This document shows positions 9,823 through 15,710 of a stretch of 64,000 nt of DNA, in pieces. The notes beneath the pieces were generated by a model. It was not told where the DNA came from, searched no databases, and saw only the letters and a list, made by a program, of their open reading frames with translations. Position numbers and translations under genes: made by a program. The DNA lies in the NCBI GenBank assembly GCA_020072845.1, contig JAIQGF010000001.1, positions 186,001-250,000 of the forward strand, in the 5' to 3' direction. Position 1 is the first letter of the stretch; each line of letters begins with the position of its first letter. Source of the stretch: Terriglobia bacterium. Its GTDB lineage: Bacteria > Acidobacteriota > Terriglobia > Terriglobales > Acidobacteriaceae.

Positions 9823-10677
9823 ATGAAGAGCGAACGCCAGCACCGGGAAGACATCGTGCGCTTTGGCCGCATGCTGCACCAGCGCGGCTACATTGCCGCC
9901 ACTGACGGCAACCTCTCCGTCCGCATCGACCCCGAGACCGTTCTCTCCACCCCAACGGGCATGAGCAAGGGCATGCTCGAGCCCGAGGACCTGGTGGTGG
10001 TGGACATGAAGGGCAAAAAGGTCACTGGCCGCCGCCAGGTGTCGAGTGAAATCGGCATGCACCTGCTCATCTACTCCCTGCGTCCGGACACCCACGGCAT
10101 CGTGCACGCGCATCCGCCTACTGCCACGGGATACGCCGCCGCCGGCCTGCCGCTGAATCAGGCGCTGATCTCCGAAATCGTGCTTTCCCTGGGATGCATT
10201 CCCCTGGCGCGCTACGCGACGCCCGGAACGCCTGAACTGGTGGCGGCGCTGGAGCCGCTCGTCCCGCAGTACGACGCCATCCTGATGGCGAACCACGGCG
10301 TCGTCACCTACGGCGAGGACCTGACGCGCGCCTACATGAAAATGGAAACTGTCGAGCACTTCGCGCAGATCACGCTGGTCACGCACCTGCTCGGCCGCCA
10401 GCAACTGCTCACCCAGGACGACGTCAGCAAGCTCATTGACGCGCGCGAGCGCTACGGCCTTACCGGACCGGCGAAAGGAACCGTTGCCTGCCCGGTGACG
10501 GCGGGTTCTGCGCCGCCGCCATCGCGGGAATCAGCCGGCGTCCTGCCCTTCGCCCCCGCCAAAGGTGGGGAAGGTCCTAAGCCGCAGGACGGAGGCGGCA
10601 AGATCACGGTTACGCGCGAGGAACTGGCCGCCATCGTGGAAGACGCGCTGCGCCAAACCGGCAAGCGGCGCTGGTAA
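9823..10677 (+). CDS. Class II aldolase with putative microcompartment-targeting tail
   Basis: Residues 1-200 are a class II aldolase/adducin domain of the L-fuculose-phosphate aldolase type. TDGNLSVR marks the phosphate-binding part, SEIGMH carries the catalytic Glu, and the zinc histidines are in IVHAHPPTA and MANHGVVTYGED. Such enzymes cleave deoxyhexulose-1-phosphates into dihydroxyacetone phosphate and lactaldehyde. After about 205 comes a Pro/Gly/Ala-rich linker of some 50 residues, then TREELAAIVEDALRQTGKRR. This short amphipathic helix at the very C-terminus resembles an encapsulation peptide. Four shell-protein genes follow directly, so the enzyme is probably the cargo of this microcompartment. 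The substrate is not settled by sequence; a fucose or rhamnose product is my best guess. Confidence 0.88.
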   Translation: MKSERQHREDIVRFGRMLHQRGYIAATDGNLSVRIDPETVLSTPTGMSKGMLEPEDLVVVDMKGKKVTGRRQVSSEIGMHLLIYSLRPDTHGIVHAHPPTATGYAAAGLPLNQALISEIVLSLGCIPLARYATPGTPELVAALEPLVPQYDAILMANHGVVTYGEDLTRAYMKMETVEHFAQITLVTHLLGRQQLLTQDDVSKLIDARERYGLTGPAKGTVACPVTAGSAPPPSRESAGVLPFAPAKGGEGPKPQDGGGKITVTREELAAIVEDALRQTGKRRW

Positions 10678-10765
10678 TTGGCAATTCGCCATTGGCAATT
10701 GGCTATGGGCCGCGTAAGATTCCGGTTCTTACATTACTGGGAACCGGCAACTGACAACCGAAAAG
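10674..10765. repeat. GGCAATTGGC-word repeats
   Basis: Copies of GGTAATTGGCAATTCGCC and TTGGCAATTGGC, followed by GGTTCTTACATTACTGG and ACCGGCAACTGACAACCG, fill the gap between the aldolase and the BMC-H gene. Confidence 0.6.
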
Positions 10766-10790
10766 CGAGAACTCATAACGGGAGACTCAC

Positions 10791-11090
10791 ATGGGTGAAG
10801 CATTGGGAATGATTGAAACGCGCGGTCTGGTGGCGATGATTGAGGCCTCCGACGCCATGGTGAAGGCCGCCAAGGTCACGCTGGTGGGCTGGGAAAAGAT
10901 CGGCTCGGGCTACGTCACCGCCCTGGTGCGCGGCGATGTGGCCGCCGTCAAAGCCGCCACCGACGCCGGCGCCGCCGCCGCGCGCCGCGTCGGCGAACTC
11001 ATCGCCGTGCACGTGATCCCGCGTCCGCACGCCAGCCTGGAAGACGTGCTGCCCATCGGCCGCGTCATCACCGCCAAGGCCGGAGCCTAG
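10791..11090 (+). CDS. Bacterial microcompartment hexameric shell protein (BMC-H)
   Basis: The 99-residue product is a single BMC domain. It begins [20 protein letters not shown], continues with a [21 protein letters not shown] strand pair, and ends [16 protein letters not shown], all close to the PduA/EutM/CcmK pattern. Six copies form a flat hexagonal tile with a central pore, and the GSG loop (about residues 40-42) would line the pore as in PduA-type shells. It follows the putative cargo aldolase by 113 bp and has its own ribosome-binding site (GGGAG). A single BMC-H plus three BMC-P genes is a small set; no BMC-T gene is in the window. Confidence 0.95.
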
Positions 11091-11191
11091 GAATTGGTAA
11101 TCGGGTAATTTGTAATTGGGCAATTTGTCCGAAGCCCGTTGGCAATCGAGCTTTCGTTTTCAATTGCAAATTACAAATTGCAAATTACAAA
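11091..11191. repeat. GGTAATTTG-word inverted repeat
   Basis: GGTAATCGGGTAATTTG and GTAATTGGGCAATTTG face CAAATTACAAATTGCAAATT. This can form a hairpin between two shell-protein genes. Confidence 0.7.
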
Positions 11192-11227
11192 TGCAGCGGG
11201 CCGTTCGCGCCCGCAAGGATCATTGCG

Positions 11228-11554
11228 ATGCTTCTCGCACGCGTAGTAGGCACGGTAGTCGCCACGCGCAAGGACGACCGCCTGCAAGGCCGCAAGCTGC
11301 TGGTCTGCCGTTCGGTCACGCCGGACGGCACGGTGGAGGGCGGCTACGTCGTCGCCGTGGACACGGTGGGCGCCGGCGTTCATGAAACGGTGCTGCTGGT
11401 GAGCGGTTCCTCGGCCCGCATGGCCGGCGGAAAGGAATCGCCGGTGGACAGCGCCGTCGTCGGCATTGTGGACGAGGTCCGCACCGAGAACGACTCCGAG
11501 TCTTCGTCTTACAACAAGCGCACCACCGCCGTCGCCGGCAAATCGAAACACTGA
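11228..11554 (+). CDS. Microcompartment pentameric vertex protein 1 (BMC-P, EutN/CcmL)
   Basis: The 108-residue product opens MLLARVVGTVVATRKDDRLQ and continues with GRKLLVCRSV, AVDTVGAGVHETVLLVSGSSA and SPVDSAVVGIVDEV. These are the four recognisable blocks of the EutN/CcmL/CsoS4 family, which forms pentamers that close the vertices of microcompartment shells. The first of three consecutive BMC-P genes. The N-terminal strand motif A-x-V-x-G-x-V and the terminal VGIVDE motif are shared by all three. The 22-residue tail is polar. No strong ribosome-binding site is visible before the ATG, so it may be translated less than its neighbours. Confidence 0.93.
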   Translation: MLLARVVGTVVATRKDDRLQGRKLLVCRSVTPDGTVEGGYVVAVDTVGAGVHETVLLVSGSSARMAGGKESPVDSAVVGIVDEVRTENDSESSSYNKRTTAVAGKSKH

Positions 11555-11637
11555 GGGTAATTGCCGAATTGCCGAACTGCGGAATCGGTGAATTGGTTTT
11601 CAATTCGGCAGTTCGGCACTTCCGCAATTCCGCAATG
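11552..11637. repeat. GAATTGCCG-word inverted repeat
   Basis: AATTGCCGAATTGCCGAAC is faced by AATTCGGCAGTTCGGC and TTCCGCAATTCCGC. A hairpin between BMC-P genes 1 and 2 is possible. Confidence 0.7.
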
Positions 11638-11646
11638 GGTTAGCTC

Positions 11647-12027
11647 ATGATGCTCGCGAAAGTCATCGGCACCGTGGTTTGCACCGTCAAGTACCCGACG
11701 CTGGAAGGCTGCAAGCTCCTGGTGCTCCAGCCGGTGAACAAGGACGGCGTTCCGCGCGGCAAGACCCTGGTCGGCATTGACGCCGTCGGGGCCGGGGTCG
11801 GCGAAACCGTGTACTGGTGCCGTGGCCGCGAAGCCGCTCTCGCCTTCGATCATGAAGTCGTCAGCGACGCCAGCATTGTCGGCATCGTGGACGAGATCAC
11901 CGCCGCCGATCAGTCCGGCTCCGCCTCATCGGCCGCTGGTCCCGCCTGCACGGCTGTCGGTCCGGCGTCCCCCGCGGCGCCTGCCGTGAAATCGCGCGCT
12001 GCCGCCGAGAAGCGAGGCCGCCGATGA
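11647..12027 (+). CDS. Microcompartment pentameric vertex protein 2 (BMC-P), with tail
   Basis: This 126-residue BMC-P protein begins MMLAKVIGTVVCTVKYPTLE and carries CKLLVLQPVNKDG, GIDAVGAGVGETVYWCRG and SIVGIVDEITAAD, the EutN/CcmL blocks. Compared with the other two it has a C-terminal extension of about 35 residues, rich in Ala, Ser and Pro and ending with a basic AAEKRGRR. Several cysteines, including one next to the strand (VYWCRG), are unusual among the three paralogues. The TGA stop overlaps the ATG of the next gene (ATGA), so the two are translationally coupled. The three paralogues may form homo- or hetero-pentamers. Confidence 0.93.
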   Translation: MMLAKVIGTVVCTVKYPTLEGCKLLVLQPVNKDGVPRGKTLVGIDAVGAGVGETVYWCRGREAALAFDHEVVSDASIVGIVDEITAADQSGSASSAAGPACTAVGPASPAAPAVKSRAAAEKRGRR

Positions 12028-12305
12028 TCATCGGACGCATCCTCGGCGAAGTGGTTGCCACCCGCAAGCACAAGTCGCACGAAGGCCGGAAGGTGCTGCT
12101 GGTGCAGCCGCTCGCGCTTGACGATTCCGCCCGCGGCGAGCCCATCCTCGCCCTCGACACCGTGGACGCCGGCGTCGGCGACCGCGTGCTCGTCGTCCAG
12201 GAAGGCTACGGCGCCATGACCGCCGCCGGCCGCCCCAACTCTCCGATTGATATGAGCGTCATCGGCGTGGTGGACGAGATCGAACTAGCCGCTGACGAAC
12301 GCTGA
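12024..12305 (+). CDS. Microcompartment pentameric vertex protein 3 (BMC-P)
   Basis: The 93-residue product, MIIGRILGEVVATRKHKSHE to SVIGVVDEIELAADER, is the shortest BMC-P of the cluster. It has the family blocks GRKVLLVQPL and LDTVDAGVGDRVLVVQEG. It overlaps the preceding gene by four bases. It ends the cluster, and the next gene is convergent. The order aldolase, BMC-H, three BMC-P recalls the sugar-degrading Planctomycetes/Verrucomicrobia-type loci, but the expected aldehyde dehydrogenase, phosphotransacylase and alcohol dehydrogenase are absent from the flanks here. These would have to be encoded elsewhere. Confidence 0.93.
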   Translation: MIIGRILGEVVATRKHKSHEGRKVLLVQPLALDDSARGEPILALDTVDAGVGDRVLVVQEGYGAMTAAGRPNSPIDMSVIGVVDEIELAADER

Positions 12306-12421: not shown

Positions 12422-14785
12422 CTACTCTCCTCCGATGCGAAATCTCATTCCCGCGCGGAAATTCGCCCGCAGCGCCGGATATCCCGCCGACTCCTCGTAA
12501 TGCCGGTTGAGTGCGTTCTCGATATTCACATACGCGGTCATGCGGCTGTTGATCGCGCGCCACACGCCGAAATCCACGCGCGCGTAGCCCGCACTGTGCG
12601 TCACCGGCGGCAGCAGCCCCAGGAAATCGGAATCCGTGCGGCGTCCCAGAGCGGTCACGCCCACATCGCCGCCCCAGCGCCGCGCCGCGTACACCGCCAG
12701 CATCGAAGCCGCGTGCTTCGGCCGGCGCAGCAGCGGCGCGCCCGCGCTCAGCAGCGGATCGAACGCCAGCGGCGCGTTCAGGATCTGGGTTGAGGTGTAG
12801 GTATACGACGCGTCCACGCTCAACCGCGACCACGGCCGTGCCCGGAATTCCACCTCCGAGCCGTGCGCCAGCGCGCGGTTGATGTTCAGATACTGGCTGA
12901 CAAACAGCACCGGATCGAAGTTGAACTCAATCTGGTTGGTGAACAGGTTGTTGAAGTAGGTCGCGCCCAGCCAGTACTTACCCCCGACAAAGCTTTGCTG
13001 CACGCCCGCTTCCAGCGATCGGTTCTCCTCCGCCTTCAGGTTGGGGTTGGGAATGATCCCGAATCCGCCGACGCCGAACGATTCCTCCAGCCTCGGCTCC
13101 TTGATCCCGGTGCCGTAGGCAAACCGCAGCCGCGTGCCGGAAAAACTCCGGCCGCCCTTCAGCGCCAGCACACTGGCGGCAATCCTCGGCAGCACGCGAT
13201 TGCCGAAACTCTCGTTGCGCTCGAAGCGCGCGCCCGCGATCACCGTCACGCGCGTCCAGGTCAGCACCTCCTGCCCGAACACCGCGTGATTGCGCCGCAG
13301 CCCGTGGCCGAGCGGCAGCGAGGTCAGGTCTCCCACCCAGCCGTTCTCGTCCTCGAAGTGATAGCCGACCGTGGTTCGCGCCCAGCTTCGCGCTACGTAA
13401 TCGCCCTGGTAGTCGAAGCCGGCGCGATTGAGGTTGGCAAAATCGGAAAACGGGAAATCGAAGTTGCCGAACGCCGGCGAGACGCGTCCCGGATCCATGA
13501 ACGTGTCCACCACCGAGCGCCGGTGGTGATATTCGAAGCCACTGAAGCGGTGCTGCCAGCGCGATGGGCCCGCGATCGTCAGCTCGGCGCTTGCCAGGAA
13601 GTTGTTCTGCCGCGCGCGCGCGTCGCTGTCCGGCGGCAACAGCGGCTGGCCGTTGAAGTTCCAGAAACCCTGCACGCCGGTGCGGTCGGTGAAATGCCGC
13701 GTGCGCAGCCGGAATGTGGCGCGCGGCGCAATCTGTACCCCGATGTTGGCGCCCTCCAGCGAACTCGAATATTGGTCGTTGCTCCCCTGCCCGCTGGTGT
13801 TGAACTGCTCGCCGAACAGGTTGTAGTCGAATCGTCCGCGCGCGCCCGCCAGCGACACGTAGCCGCGCGCCGTGCCGAAGGTTCCGCCTTCCGCGCCGAA
13901 GCGCACCTCCGGCGTGCGCGTGGTTCCGGTCGCAGTCCAGGTCTGAATGACGCTGGTCATCGCGTCCGAGCCGTAGAGCGTGCTCTCCGCGCCGCGCACG
14001 AACTCCAGCCGGTCCACCTGGTACATCGGCGCCACGCCGAAATCGAAGGTGCCTCCGGGATCGTTCACCGCGACGCCGTCCACGATGACCTTGTTGTAGC
14101 GCGAGTCGCCGCCGCGCACGAACAGCGACGACAATCCGCCGCGCCGTCCGCTGGCGCTCACGATGGCTCCCGGAAGGAAGCGCAGCGTGTCAATCGCGCT
14201 CACGGGCTGGGTGGATGTCAATGCGTCCGGACCAAGCGACGACGTGTCGGAACCTGTGTCTTGACTGGGCAGGGGCGTGCGCTCCGCGCTCACCACCACG
14301 GTTGCCGCCGCGCTTGGCAGCTCCAGCTTGACCGTGATCTCGGCCTCGTGAGCGACCGAAGCCGCTTGCACGAGATTGACCTTTTCCCGCGCAGCCGACG
14401 CGTTGGTCATCGCCGGTGCAAATCCCGGGGCCAGCACTTCCACGCGATATGTTGTTGCGCTCAGTCCGCTGAACGCGCATGTTCCCTCGGCATTCGTCGT
14501 GCGCACCGCGACCGCGGTCGAGCTGTTCTGCGGATATACGGTGACGCGCGCGCCCGCCACCACCGCGGACTGCGGATCAACGACTTTGACCTTGAGCTCG
14601 GAGGCAAAGCTGCTCGCGACGGCCACGCTCGCCACCAAGATAAGAGTGGCAATGATGCAACGCGATAGCAATGGGAACCAGCCCGCAAAGCGGGCGGAAT
14701 TCGTTAGCCCACCGCGGAAGCGGTGGGAAAGCTGGAAGAAGAAAGCAGAGCGCCAGCGGCGCGACACAGGGACAAGCACGGCCAT
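12422..14785 (-). CDS. TonB-dependent outer-membrane receptor, BtuB-like (cobalamin uptake)
   Basis: Near the N-terminus is a signal segment (about 45-62, IIATLILVASVAVASSFAS). A carboxypeptidase-regulatory-like beta domain follows (about 65-160, GARVTVYPQNSS), then a plug domain (LFVRGGDSRYNKVIVDGV, EFVRGAESTLYG) and a barrel of about 500 residues ending in RAGMRFRIG. The cobalamin riboswitch upstream points to vitamin B12 or another corrinoid as cargo. The start is uncertain: a GTG at 14797, the ATG at 14785, a GTG at 14779 after AAAGGAGG, or a TTG at 14671. The TTG would begin directly before the signal peptide and skip a hairpin-rich stretch. I list the ATG. No tonB or btuCDF genes are adjacent. 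Confidence 0.9.
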   Translation of the reverse strand: MAVLVPVSRRWRSAFFFQLSHRFRGGLTNSARFAGWFPLLSRCIIATLILVASVAVASSFASELKVKVVDPQSAVVAGARVTVYPQNSSTAVAVRTTNAEGTCAFSGLSATTYRVEVLAPGFAPAMTNASAAREKVNLVQAASVAHEAEITVKLELPSAAATVVVSAERTPLPSQDTGSDTSSLGPDALTSTQPVSAIDTLRFLPGAIVSASGRRGGLSSLFVRGGDSRYNKVIVDGVAVNDPGGTFDFGVAPMYQVDRLEFVRGAESTLYGSDAMTSVIQTWTATGTTRTPEVRFGAEGGTFGTARGYVSLAGARGRFDYNLFGEQFNTSGQGSNDQYSSSLEGANIGVQIAPRATFRLRTRHFTDRTGVQGFWNFNGQPLLPPDSDARARQNNFLASAELTIAGPSRWQHRFSGFEYHHRRSVVDTFMDPGRVSPAFGNFDFPFSDFANLNRAGFDYQGDYVARSWARTTVGYHFEDENGWVGDLTSLPLGHGLRRNHAVFGQEVLTWTRVTVIAGARFERNESFGNRVLPRIAASVLALKGGRSFSGTRLRFAYGTGIKEPRLEESFGVGGFGIIPNPNLKAEENRSLEAGVQQSFVGGKYWLGATYFNNLFTNQIEFNFDPVLFVSQYLNINRALAHGSEVEFRARPWSRLSVDASYTYTSTQILNAPLAFDPLLSAGAPLLRRPKHAASMLAVYAARRWGGDVGVTALGRRTDSDFLGLLPPVTHSAGYARVDFGVWRAINSRMTAYVNIENALNRHYEESAGYPALRANFRAGMRFRIGGE
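14681..14727. repeat. Paired REP-like hairpins at the receptor N-terminus
   Basis: Two perfect palindromes: GCCCGC-AAA-GCGGGC (14681-14695) and CCCACCGC-GGAA-GCGGTGGG (14708-14727). They lie within the annotated N-terminal codons of the receptor, or in its leader if the TTG at 14671 is the true start. Confidence 0.7.
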
Positions 14786-14818
14786 CCTCCTTTGCACGCG
14801 AAAGGGGTTGTGGTTGGC

Positions 14819-15030
14819 GGTTCGCGCCGGTCTCCTGGCTTGCGACTTCTTCAGTTGTGAGTTGTGAGTTTTGAGTTCTGAGCAAGAATGCGATTGCTCA
14901 AAACTCAGAACTCACAACTCAGAACTCGACGCGCCTTCCCATCTTTCGACAGTGGCAGCGCCGGCGTACAGCGTCGCTTACAGTTGCGCGGCAGCGCGGG
15001 CTTTGCACCCGCTTCCCGTACGCGCGAACC
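14819..15030 (-). ncRNA. Cobalamin riboswitch with an expanded peripheral hairpin
   Basis: On the minus strand, in order, are GGTTCGCGC (closing stem), GGGAAGCGGGTGCAAAGCCC, GCGCAACTGTAA, GCCACTG, GGGAAGGC, and finally GCAAGCCAGGAGACCGGC followed by GCGCGAACC. The last pairs perfectly with the first nine bases to close P1. These are the conserved blocks of the AdoCbl-type riboswitch in their usual order. Between GGGAAGGC and AAGCCAGGAGACC an extra hairpin of about 70 bases is built from GAGTTGTGAGTTTTGAG-like words and their complement (14866-14935). The element precedes the BtuB-like receptor gene, whose expression it should repress when corrinoid is abundant. Confidence 0.9.
14866..14935. 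repeat. GAGTTxTGAGTT-word hairpin inside the riboswitch
   Basis: The plus strand reads GTTGTGAGTTTTGAGTTCTG, then a short loop, then CAAAACTCAGAACTCACAAC. Each arm holds three to four copies of a 7-8 base word. Confidence 0.8.
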
Positions 15031-15167
15031 AAGGTTGTCAAAGAACGTCACGCGAGCGCGTGAGCGGTACGACTCTATGGCCGATTGGAAGTTATGTCAA
15101 TGTCGGCGGCGATGGCGGGTGGCTGATAGCTCTGCGCTACGGCACGAAGCGTAACCTGTGCGATGGC

Positions 15168-15434
15168 CTACCGCGCTGCTTGATTCGCGCGGCGCTTCTC
15201 GAGTTGCTCGACCACGCTATCGAGATCGGGATAACCGGCGCCAAGGCTCCGTGTGAGCCAGTTTCCGCCGCGCTCGGCAATCCGCTCGCCGTCAGCAATC
15301 ACTTCGAACTGACCGGTCTTGCCAGGCGTCGTCACGGCATCAATGTTGAGGCGCTTTTTGATGAGGGTCACGAGACTCGCGACCTTGGCCCTGTTGTTCT
15401 GTCACGTCGGGCAGTGAACGATCTCGATCTTCAT
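15168..15434 (-). CDS. Rdx-family (SelW/SelT-like) selenoprotein with in-frame UGA
   Basis: From the ATG at 15434 the frame reads MKIEIVHCPT-UGA-QNNRAKVASLVTLIKKRL, then TGKTGQFEV-like sequence (GKTGQFEVIADGERIAERGG), and ends VVEQLEKRRANQAAR at TAG (15168). Read through, it gives 88 residues. The UGA is codon 11 and makes a C8-P-T-U11 (CxxU) motif, exactly where Rdx thioredoxin-fold proteins have CxxC or CxxU. Coding character continues on both sides of the UGA. A hairpin with a G-first apical loop lies 18-36 bases after it (15366-15384). A GGAGACGGG stretch precedes the ATG. A nonsense mutation in a Cys homologue is the alternative; no selA, selB or tRNA-Sec gene is in the window. Confidence 0.8.
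15366..15384 (-). promoter_or_regulatory. Putative bacterial SECIS hairpin
   Basis: The RNA GGTCGCGA-GTC-TCGTGACC forms an eight-pair stem (one G-U pair) with a three-base loop starting with G. The loop begins 26 bases after the UGA, inside the range known for SelB-dependent elements. Confidence 0.65.
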
Positions 15435-15710
15435 TCTGTTCCCGTCTCCGTTGGACGAAACCGCGTGGCTTCGCCGGTTCGTTGCGAGCTTTGGGGATTG
15501 TAAACCAGAATCCCGGGCTGACCTTGAAACACGGCGATAAGTGTATGGCCATCTCACCCACCTTCATCGCGTCCTTTTGCATCAGTGGGACTGGCGTGAA
15601 CAGCGCCTGGCGCTAGTTACGCACCTGCGCTGTTCTCGCCGAACGCGGTTTCGGCGGACTGGCGGGCGTGGGGTTGCTCCTGAGCGGAGCAAGCTAGCGG
15701 CCCAGCGGCA
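15435..15710. other. Gap without a recognisable gene
   Basis: 276 bp upstream of the selenoprotein gene. Open frames here show no family signature. A small GCTCCTGAGCGGAGC hairpin lies near 15675-15690, just after the stop of the FkbM gene. Confidence 0.5.

Follow-up and report, generated by a model that had tools for sequence, protein, structure and literature searches.

A gene on the minus strand at positions 15168-15434 of the window, by which is meant the whole 64,000-nucleotide stretch of acidobacterial DNA analyzed here, almost certainly encodes a genuine selenocysteine (Sec)-containing protein of the Rdx (SelW-like) family, with the in-frame UGA at codon 11 predicted to be read as Sec. 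The assignment draws on the translation obtained with TGA read as U, on matches to the family and on conservation among homologs. A broader proposal, that the gene represents an overlooked, Sec-only acidobacterial subfamily of Rdx proteins, occurring as a single gene without fixed neighbors and differing in function from the classical SelW-like proteins, is advanced tentatively, its chances standing somewhat below even.

Gene and Predicted Product

The coding sequence begins with ATG at 15434-15432 and ends with TAG at 15170-15168 (minus strand). A possible Shine-Dalgarno sequence, GGAGA, lies 5' of the ATG at 15445-15449 (minus), and a GGAGA-like element is found 5' of many homologs too. Translation of the minus strand with TGA as U gives a product of 88 residues, MKIEIVHCPTUQNNRAKVASLVTLIKKRLNIDAVTTPGKTGQFEVIADGERIAERGGNWLTRSLGAGYPDLDSVVEQLEKRRANQAAR-stop. 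The initial annotation had described a frame open on both sides of a TGA at codon 11, and each of its elements is seen in the sequence, including the Cys8 codon TGC (15411-15413, minus) and the TGA itself (15402-15404, minus), which occupy the first and second positions of a C-P-T-U motif. It had also anticipated what a gene caller would make of the locus: read with the standard code, the locus retains just a 67-aa ORF starting at GTG, at 15168-15371. Its portrayal of C-P-T-U as a converted CxxC held as to the residues, 8 to 11, but not as to their being unusual, because Rdx proteins carry either CxxU or CxxC, and CxxU is the canonical Sec form of the family.

The source genome (G000; 4.23 Mb, 100% complete) encodes SelA (563.7 bits against a cut-off of 268), a full-length SelB (364.7 bits against a cut-off of 242), SelD (352 bits; G000:C11:217051-218031) and a tRNA-Sec (66.8 bits) whose anticodon is TCA according to ARAGORN. 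All four of the components that the initial annotation had proposed to look for are thus found, and by gene content the Sec-decoding apparatus is complete. Two further selenoprotein genes accompany it, since selD carries an in-frame TGA of its own, and that for the formate dehydrogenase alpha subunit FdhA (1331 bits; G000:C8:333406-336462) has an in-frame TGA followed by HGP; the Rdx gene would add a third reliable selenoprotein to SelD and FdhA for an acidobacterial genome. Across the 19 carrier genomes searched, SelA exceeded its cut-off in 18 and SelB in 17, the misses being incomplete or fragmented assemblies.

Conservation and Distribution

Homologs were drawn from a species-level genome collection, near relatives, a phylum-wide sample and a class-wide sample. 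In the search for Cys or Sec at residue 11 that the initial annotation had proposed, TGA preceded by Cys8 was present in 22 of 22 distinct members of the Acidobacteriota clade (duplicates removed), and no clade member with Cys at codon 11 was found among approximately 800 sampled Acidobacteriota genome entries. Nor did homologs in close relatives end at codon 11, an outcome that would have spoken for a stop: in all 13 aligned homologs TGA is invariant and conserved protein follows it, Cys8 is likewise present in 13 of 13, and the remainder evolves as a coding frame, with substitutions outside the hairpin described below distributed over the three codon positions as 55/18/134. The readable classical SelW-like genes of the phylum recovered by the same search have TGA at the same position.

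The distribution of the gene is patchy. It is carried by 4 of the 61 nearest relatives, by about 10 of 396 genomes in the phylum-wide sample and by 9 of 399 in the class-wide sample, and searches of plasmids and of viral contigs found no relatives on either. Two distant copies carry additional defects, L039 having a frame break and L040 a TAG. The sole copy without TGA, L078 (about 1501-1750, minus, in genome G556), is otherwise recognizable; it has GGA (Gly) at this codon and a GTG start, and its hairpin no longer forms. Other members of the genus keep the UGA, and G556 itself keeps selA and selB. Judged by this comparison of sequences, L078 is a natural Sec-loss allele in which loss of the codon has been accompanied by decay of the SECIS.

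The SECIS Hairpin

The candidate bacterial SECIS lies within the coding sequence at 15366-15384 (minus strand), its loop at 15376-15374, and was recognized through folding, synonymous constraint and covariation. It takes the form GGUCGCGA-GUC-UCGUGACC, with eight pairs, one of them G-U, and a loop in which G comes first. Seventeen bases separate the UGA from the stem and 25 separate it from the loop G, so the eight-pair hairpin with a G-first loop that the initial annotation had placed from the 18th base past the UGA is found just there, at 15384-15366. Hairpins of this type are infrequent: an eight-pair stem with a G-first triloop follows in range after 8 of the 1685 TGAs of the window (0.5%, both strands), and among those eight TGAs only codon 11 is also preceded by a start codon and followed by 40 or more open codons.

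As folding of the single sequence gives a weak signal (z = -1.0), statistical support for the hairpin comes from synonymous constraint and covariation across homologs. Synonymous divergence is 5.7% over codons 17-25 vs. 36% over codons 26-80, and the ten 9-codon windows of lowest divergence all begin at codons 10-19. In an alignment of 20 sequences, 97.5% of cells are paired; changes on both sides were seen in four of the eight pairs, amounting to 20 double-changed cells, and column 24, for example, is occupied by C-G, U-A, G-C and G-U. The covariation score of 0.364 was reached by none of 500 shuffles (0.192 +/- 0.027), which do not preserve relatedness, and the signal collapsed in versions with slid partners, a control in which relatedness is preserved. 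By these comparative measures the hairpin is under selection as RNA.

In most classical SelW-like genes of the phylum a comparable hairpin is present at the matching position. The fdhA hairpin of G000, GGUGGCCA-GUU-UGGCCGCC, likewise has eight pairs and a triloop starting with GU, but its loop G is base 23 counted from the U of the UGA, whereas that of the Rdx gene is base 29. Together with this fdhA element, we take the E. coli fdhF-type SECIS to be the closest known hairpin. For selD, a shorter stretch folds into a seven-pair stem with a G-first triloop, while the full 57-base stretch folds otherwise.

Family Membership and Subfamily

Membership in the Rdx family is weak by single-sequence score but safe by chaining through homologous sequences. 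Taken alone, the window protein matches TIGR02174 (CXXU_selWTH) with E = 1.3e-4 and 22.1 bits, under the cut-off of 34.2, and PF10262 (Rdx) with E = 0.0011 and 19.6 bits, under the cut-off of 22.6. A homolog from the same genus, L018, exceeds the Pfam cut-off with 28.6 bits, and intermediates such as L042 exceed that of TIGR02174 (41.5 bits). A search of PDB with a profile of the acidobacterial set returned 3dex (8e-10), 2ljk, 2fa8, 2p0g ("selenoprotein W-related") and 2npb (SelW). The C-P-T-U motif follows the first beta strand, in line with the family alignment, and in the profile alignment the codon-11 UGA falls on a Cys of a solved Rdx protein. A thioredoxin-like fold is suggested by this homology.

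The profile matches, over most of the length, both the bacterial Rdx structures, 3dex (SAV_2001), 2fa8 (Atu0228), 2oka, 2p0g, 2obk and 2ojl, and the eukaryotic proteins SelW (2npb) and C17orf37/Rdx12 (2ljk). Presumably 2fa8, 2oka, 2p0g, 2obk and 2ojl are all of the Cys type; in the 3dex alignment, C-T-Q-C and a short loop stand against the C-P-T-U and long loop of the window protein, and in the 2ljk alignment the loop before GFP is again shorter. The eukaryotic SECIS is sited in the 3' UTR (PMC1088965), unlike the hairpin within the coding sequence described here.

Resemblance to the bacterial SelW-like proteins (PF10262, TIGR02174, NF041051) extends to small size, the N-terminal MxIxIxYCxxU with Sec occupying the second position of CxxU, the G-(Q/V)-F-(D/E)-V strand and a SECIS hairpin spanning the A-S-L-A codons. 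The acidobacterial group differs from them in having one extra residue after the Sec (xNNxxK vs. NYxPR) and in being about seven residues longer before the P-D/E helix, where RGGNxxTRxFGAGYP replaces SKxEEGDFP; Cys members were not found in it. By alignment, the subfamily-specific loop of the window protein is ERGGNWLTRSLGAG, codons 54-67, before Y-P (15234-15275, minus). The members of the subfamily that were scored all fell below the NCBIfam cut-off, and on the tree they form a separate group with support of 96/92, as calculated for a 20-row group with L041 left out and from a bootstrap that had not settled.

Alternative Readings

Were the TGA a true stop, the real gene would be the 67-aa ORF from GTG 15371, or nothing would be expressed. 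That ORF is indeed the output of a standard caller, but conservation at the protein level covers codons 1-10 and 12-21 in all homologs, start ATG and Cys8 included, the GTG that would serve as the alternative start (codon 22) is GCG, GCA, GTC, GCC or GCT in nine of them, and Sec machinery is encoded in the genome; we consider termination at codon 11 highly improbable. Slighter still is the prospect that the true gene is an ORF on the opposite strand (14871-15503, plus), with the Rdx frame as its shadow. That ORF is uninterrupted in the window, and conservation of its translation between loci is apparent, yet the frame is interrupted by stops in six homologs (L019, L027, L035, L036, L038, and L041), has no Pfam match and starts and stops at places that vary by locus, whereas substitutions track the sense codon positions and a family match is obtained for the sense protein alone.

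A recently decayed pseudogene, or a sequencing error in which TGC or TGT was misread as TGA, might be considered given that TGA is one base from a Cys codon and that the relative L078 has lost the codon. The occurrence of an identical TGA in 22 distinct sequences argues otherwise, as do covariation in the hairpin and strong purifying selection, and no close relative having Cys and lacking the hairpin at a similar gene was seen in the approximately 800 sampled genome entries; this explanation is rated no likelier than the antisense gene. The same very low probability attaches to decoding of the UGA as a residue other than Sec (Trp suppression) or to unprogrammed readthrough, for which the open frame speaks and nothing further, while the UGA sits at the redox Cys/Sec position of Rdx proteins, the genome encodes Sec machinery, the hairpin has its match in fdhA of G000, and loss of the UGA comes with decay of the hairpin.

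Proposed Mechanism and Function

If translation of the gene follows the established course of bacterial Sec insertion, SelB and Sec-tRNA(UCA) would bind the mRNA hairpin while the ribosome is positioned at the UGA of codon 11, and Sec would be inserted there in place of termination. The product would be an 88-residue thioredoxin-fold protein in which the Cys8/Sec11 pair could form a selenenylsulfide and which, by analogy with its family, may work as a thiol or peroxide oxidoreductase. SelW-like proteins have been considered redox proteins owing to the CxxU motif and an interaction with glutathione (PMC1088965). For the window protein, a role as a selenol-based thiol oxidoreductase is inferred only. 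The long RGGNxxTRxFGAGYP loop stands where classical SelW has a short GxFP segment and probably shapes a site for substrate or partner beside the selenol.

Relation to Known Selenoproteins

Bacterial SelW-like selenoproteins with CxxU have been known since 2005 (PMC1088965; PMC1794560; PMC2398784). They were the most abundant selenoprotein family of the Sargasso Sea, with 48 genes (PMC1088965), 427 were counted in the GOS survey (PMC2398784), and few or no Cys homologs were noted within Sec-using organisms (PMC1794560). An Rdx protein with Sec is thus not new. The view of the initial annotation that Rdx selenoproteins are known as a class and that this variant is undescribed stands with respect to the open-access literature, although what looks novel is the subfamily and not the CxxU. 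No description of an RGGNxxTRxFGAGYP subfamily was found in that literature, a comparison that does not extend to published SelW-like alignments. Defined in sequence by the long RGGN..TR..FGAGYP loop and by having no Cys form among those found, the subfamily looks new.

According to a recent method paper, every bacterial selenoprotein known so far appears to have Cys homologs, and methods that depend on such homologs may discard selenoproteins lacking them (PMC12013277). No Cys counterpart occurs in the sampled genomes, and therefore methods based on Cys/UGA pairs would tend to miss this subfamily, which is also mostly rejected by curated models and truncated at the UGA by gene callers. Should the Sec-only reading be true, it would be a case in which Sec appears to be required. 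With one natural loss, in which UGA became GGA and the hairpin decayed, the subfamily would provide a test case for the assumption that Cys homologs exist, and it should also be useful for asking why some Rdx proteins keep Sec.

Genomic Neighborhood and Other Observations

Neighboring genes are common only to the window and to L023, a contig from the same genus, and neighborhoods differ outside the genus. Because it is shared within one genus only, the neighborhood gives no operon partner or functional hint. A cobalamin riboswitch downstream of the Rdx gene (14808-15042, minus; 78 bits) belongs to the TonB-dependent receptor ORF at 12422-14797, of which it lies 5'; the receptor is probably a corrinoid transporter. 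An inverted repeat (gagttctgagttttgagc / gctcagaactcaaaactc type) within the riboswitch region, at about 14855-14925, may reflect insertion of a repeat into a variable aptamer arm, and a match to the Acido-Lenti-1 RNA (RF01687; 14680-14727, minus) overlaps the start of the receptor ORF. Bacterial microcompartment genes occupy 9823-12305 (plus): a class II aldolase (9823-10677) is followed by a single BMC shell protein (10791-11090) and then by three EutN/CcmL vertex proteins in a row, at 11228, 11647, and 12024.

A SelW-like relative from a Verrucomicrobia MAG (L029:4962-5168) reads IEY-U-G-M-U-NYLPHAASL, with TGA at both positions of the motif (UxxU), and a six-pair hairpin with a G-first triloop follows the second TGA. 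A double-Sec ferredoxin-thioredoxin reductase has been reported (PMC2398784). The UxxU of L029 may represent either a double-Sec active site or an assembly error.
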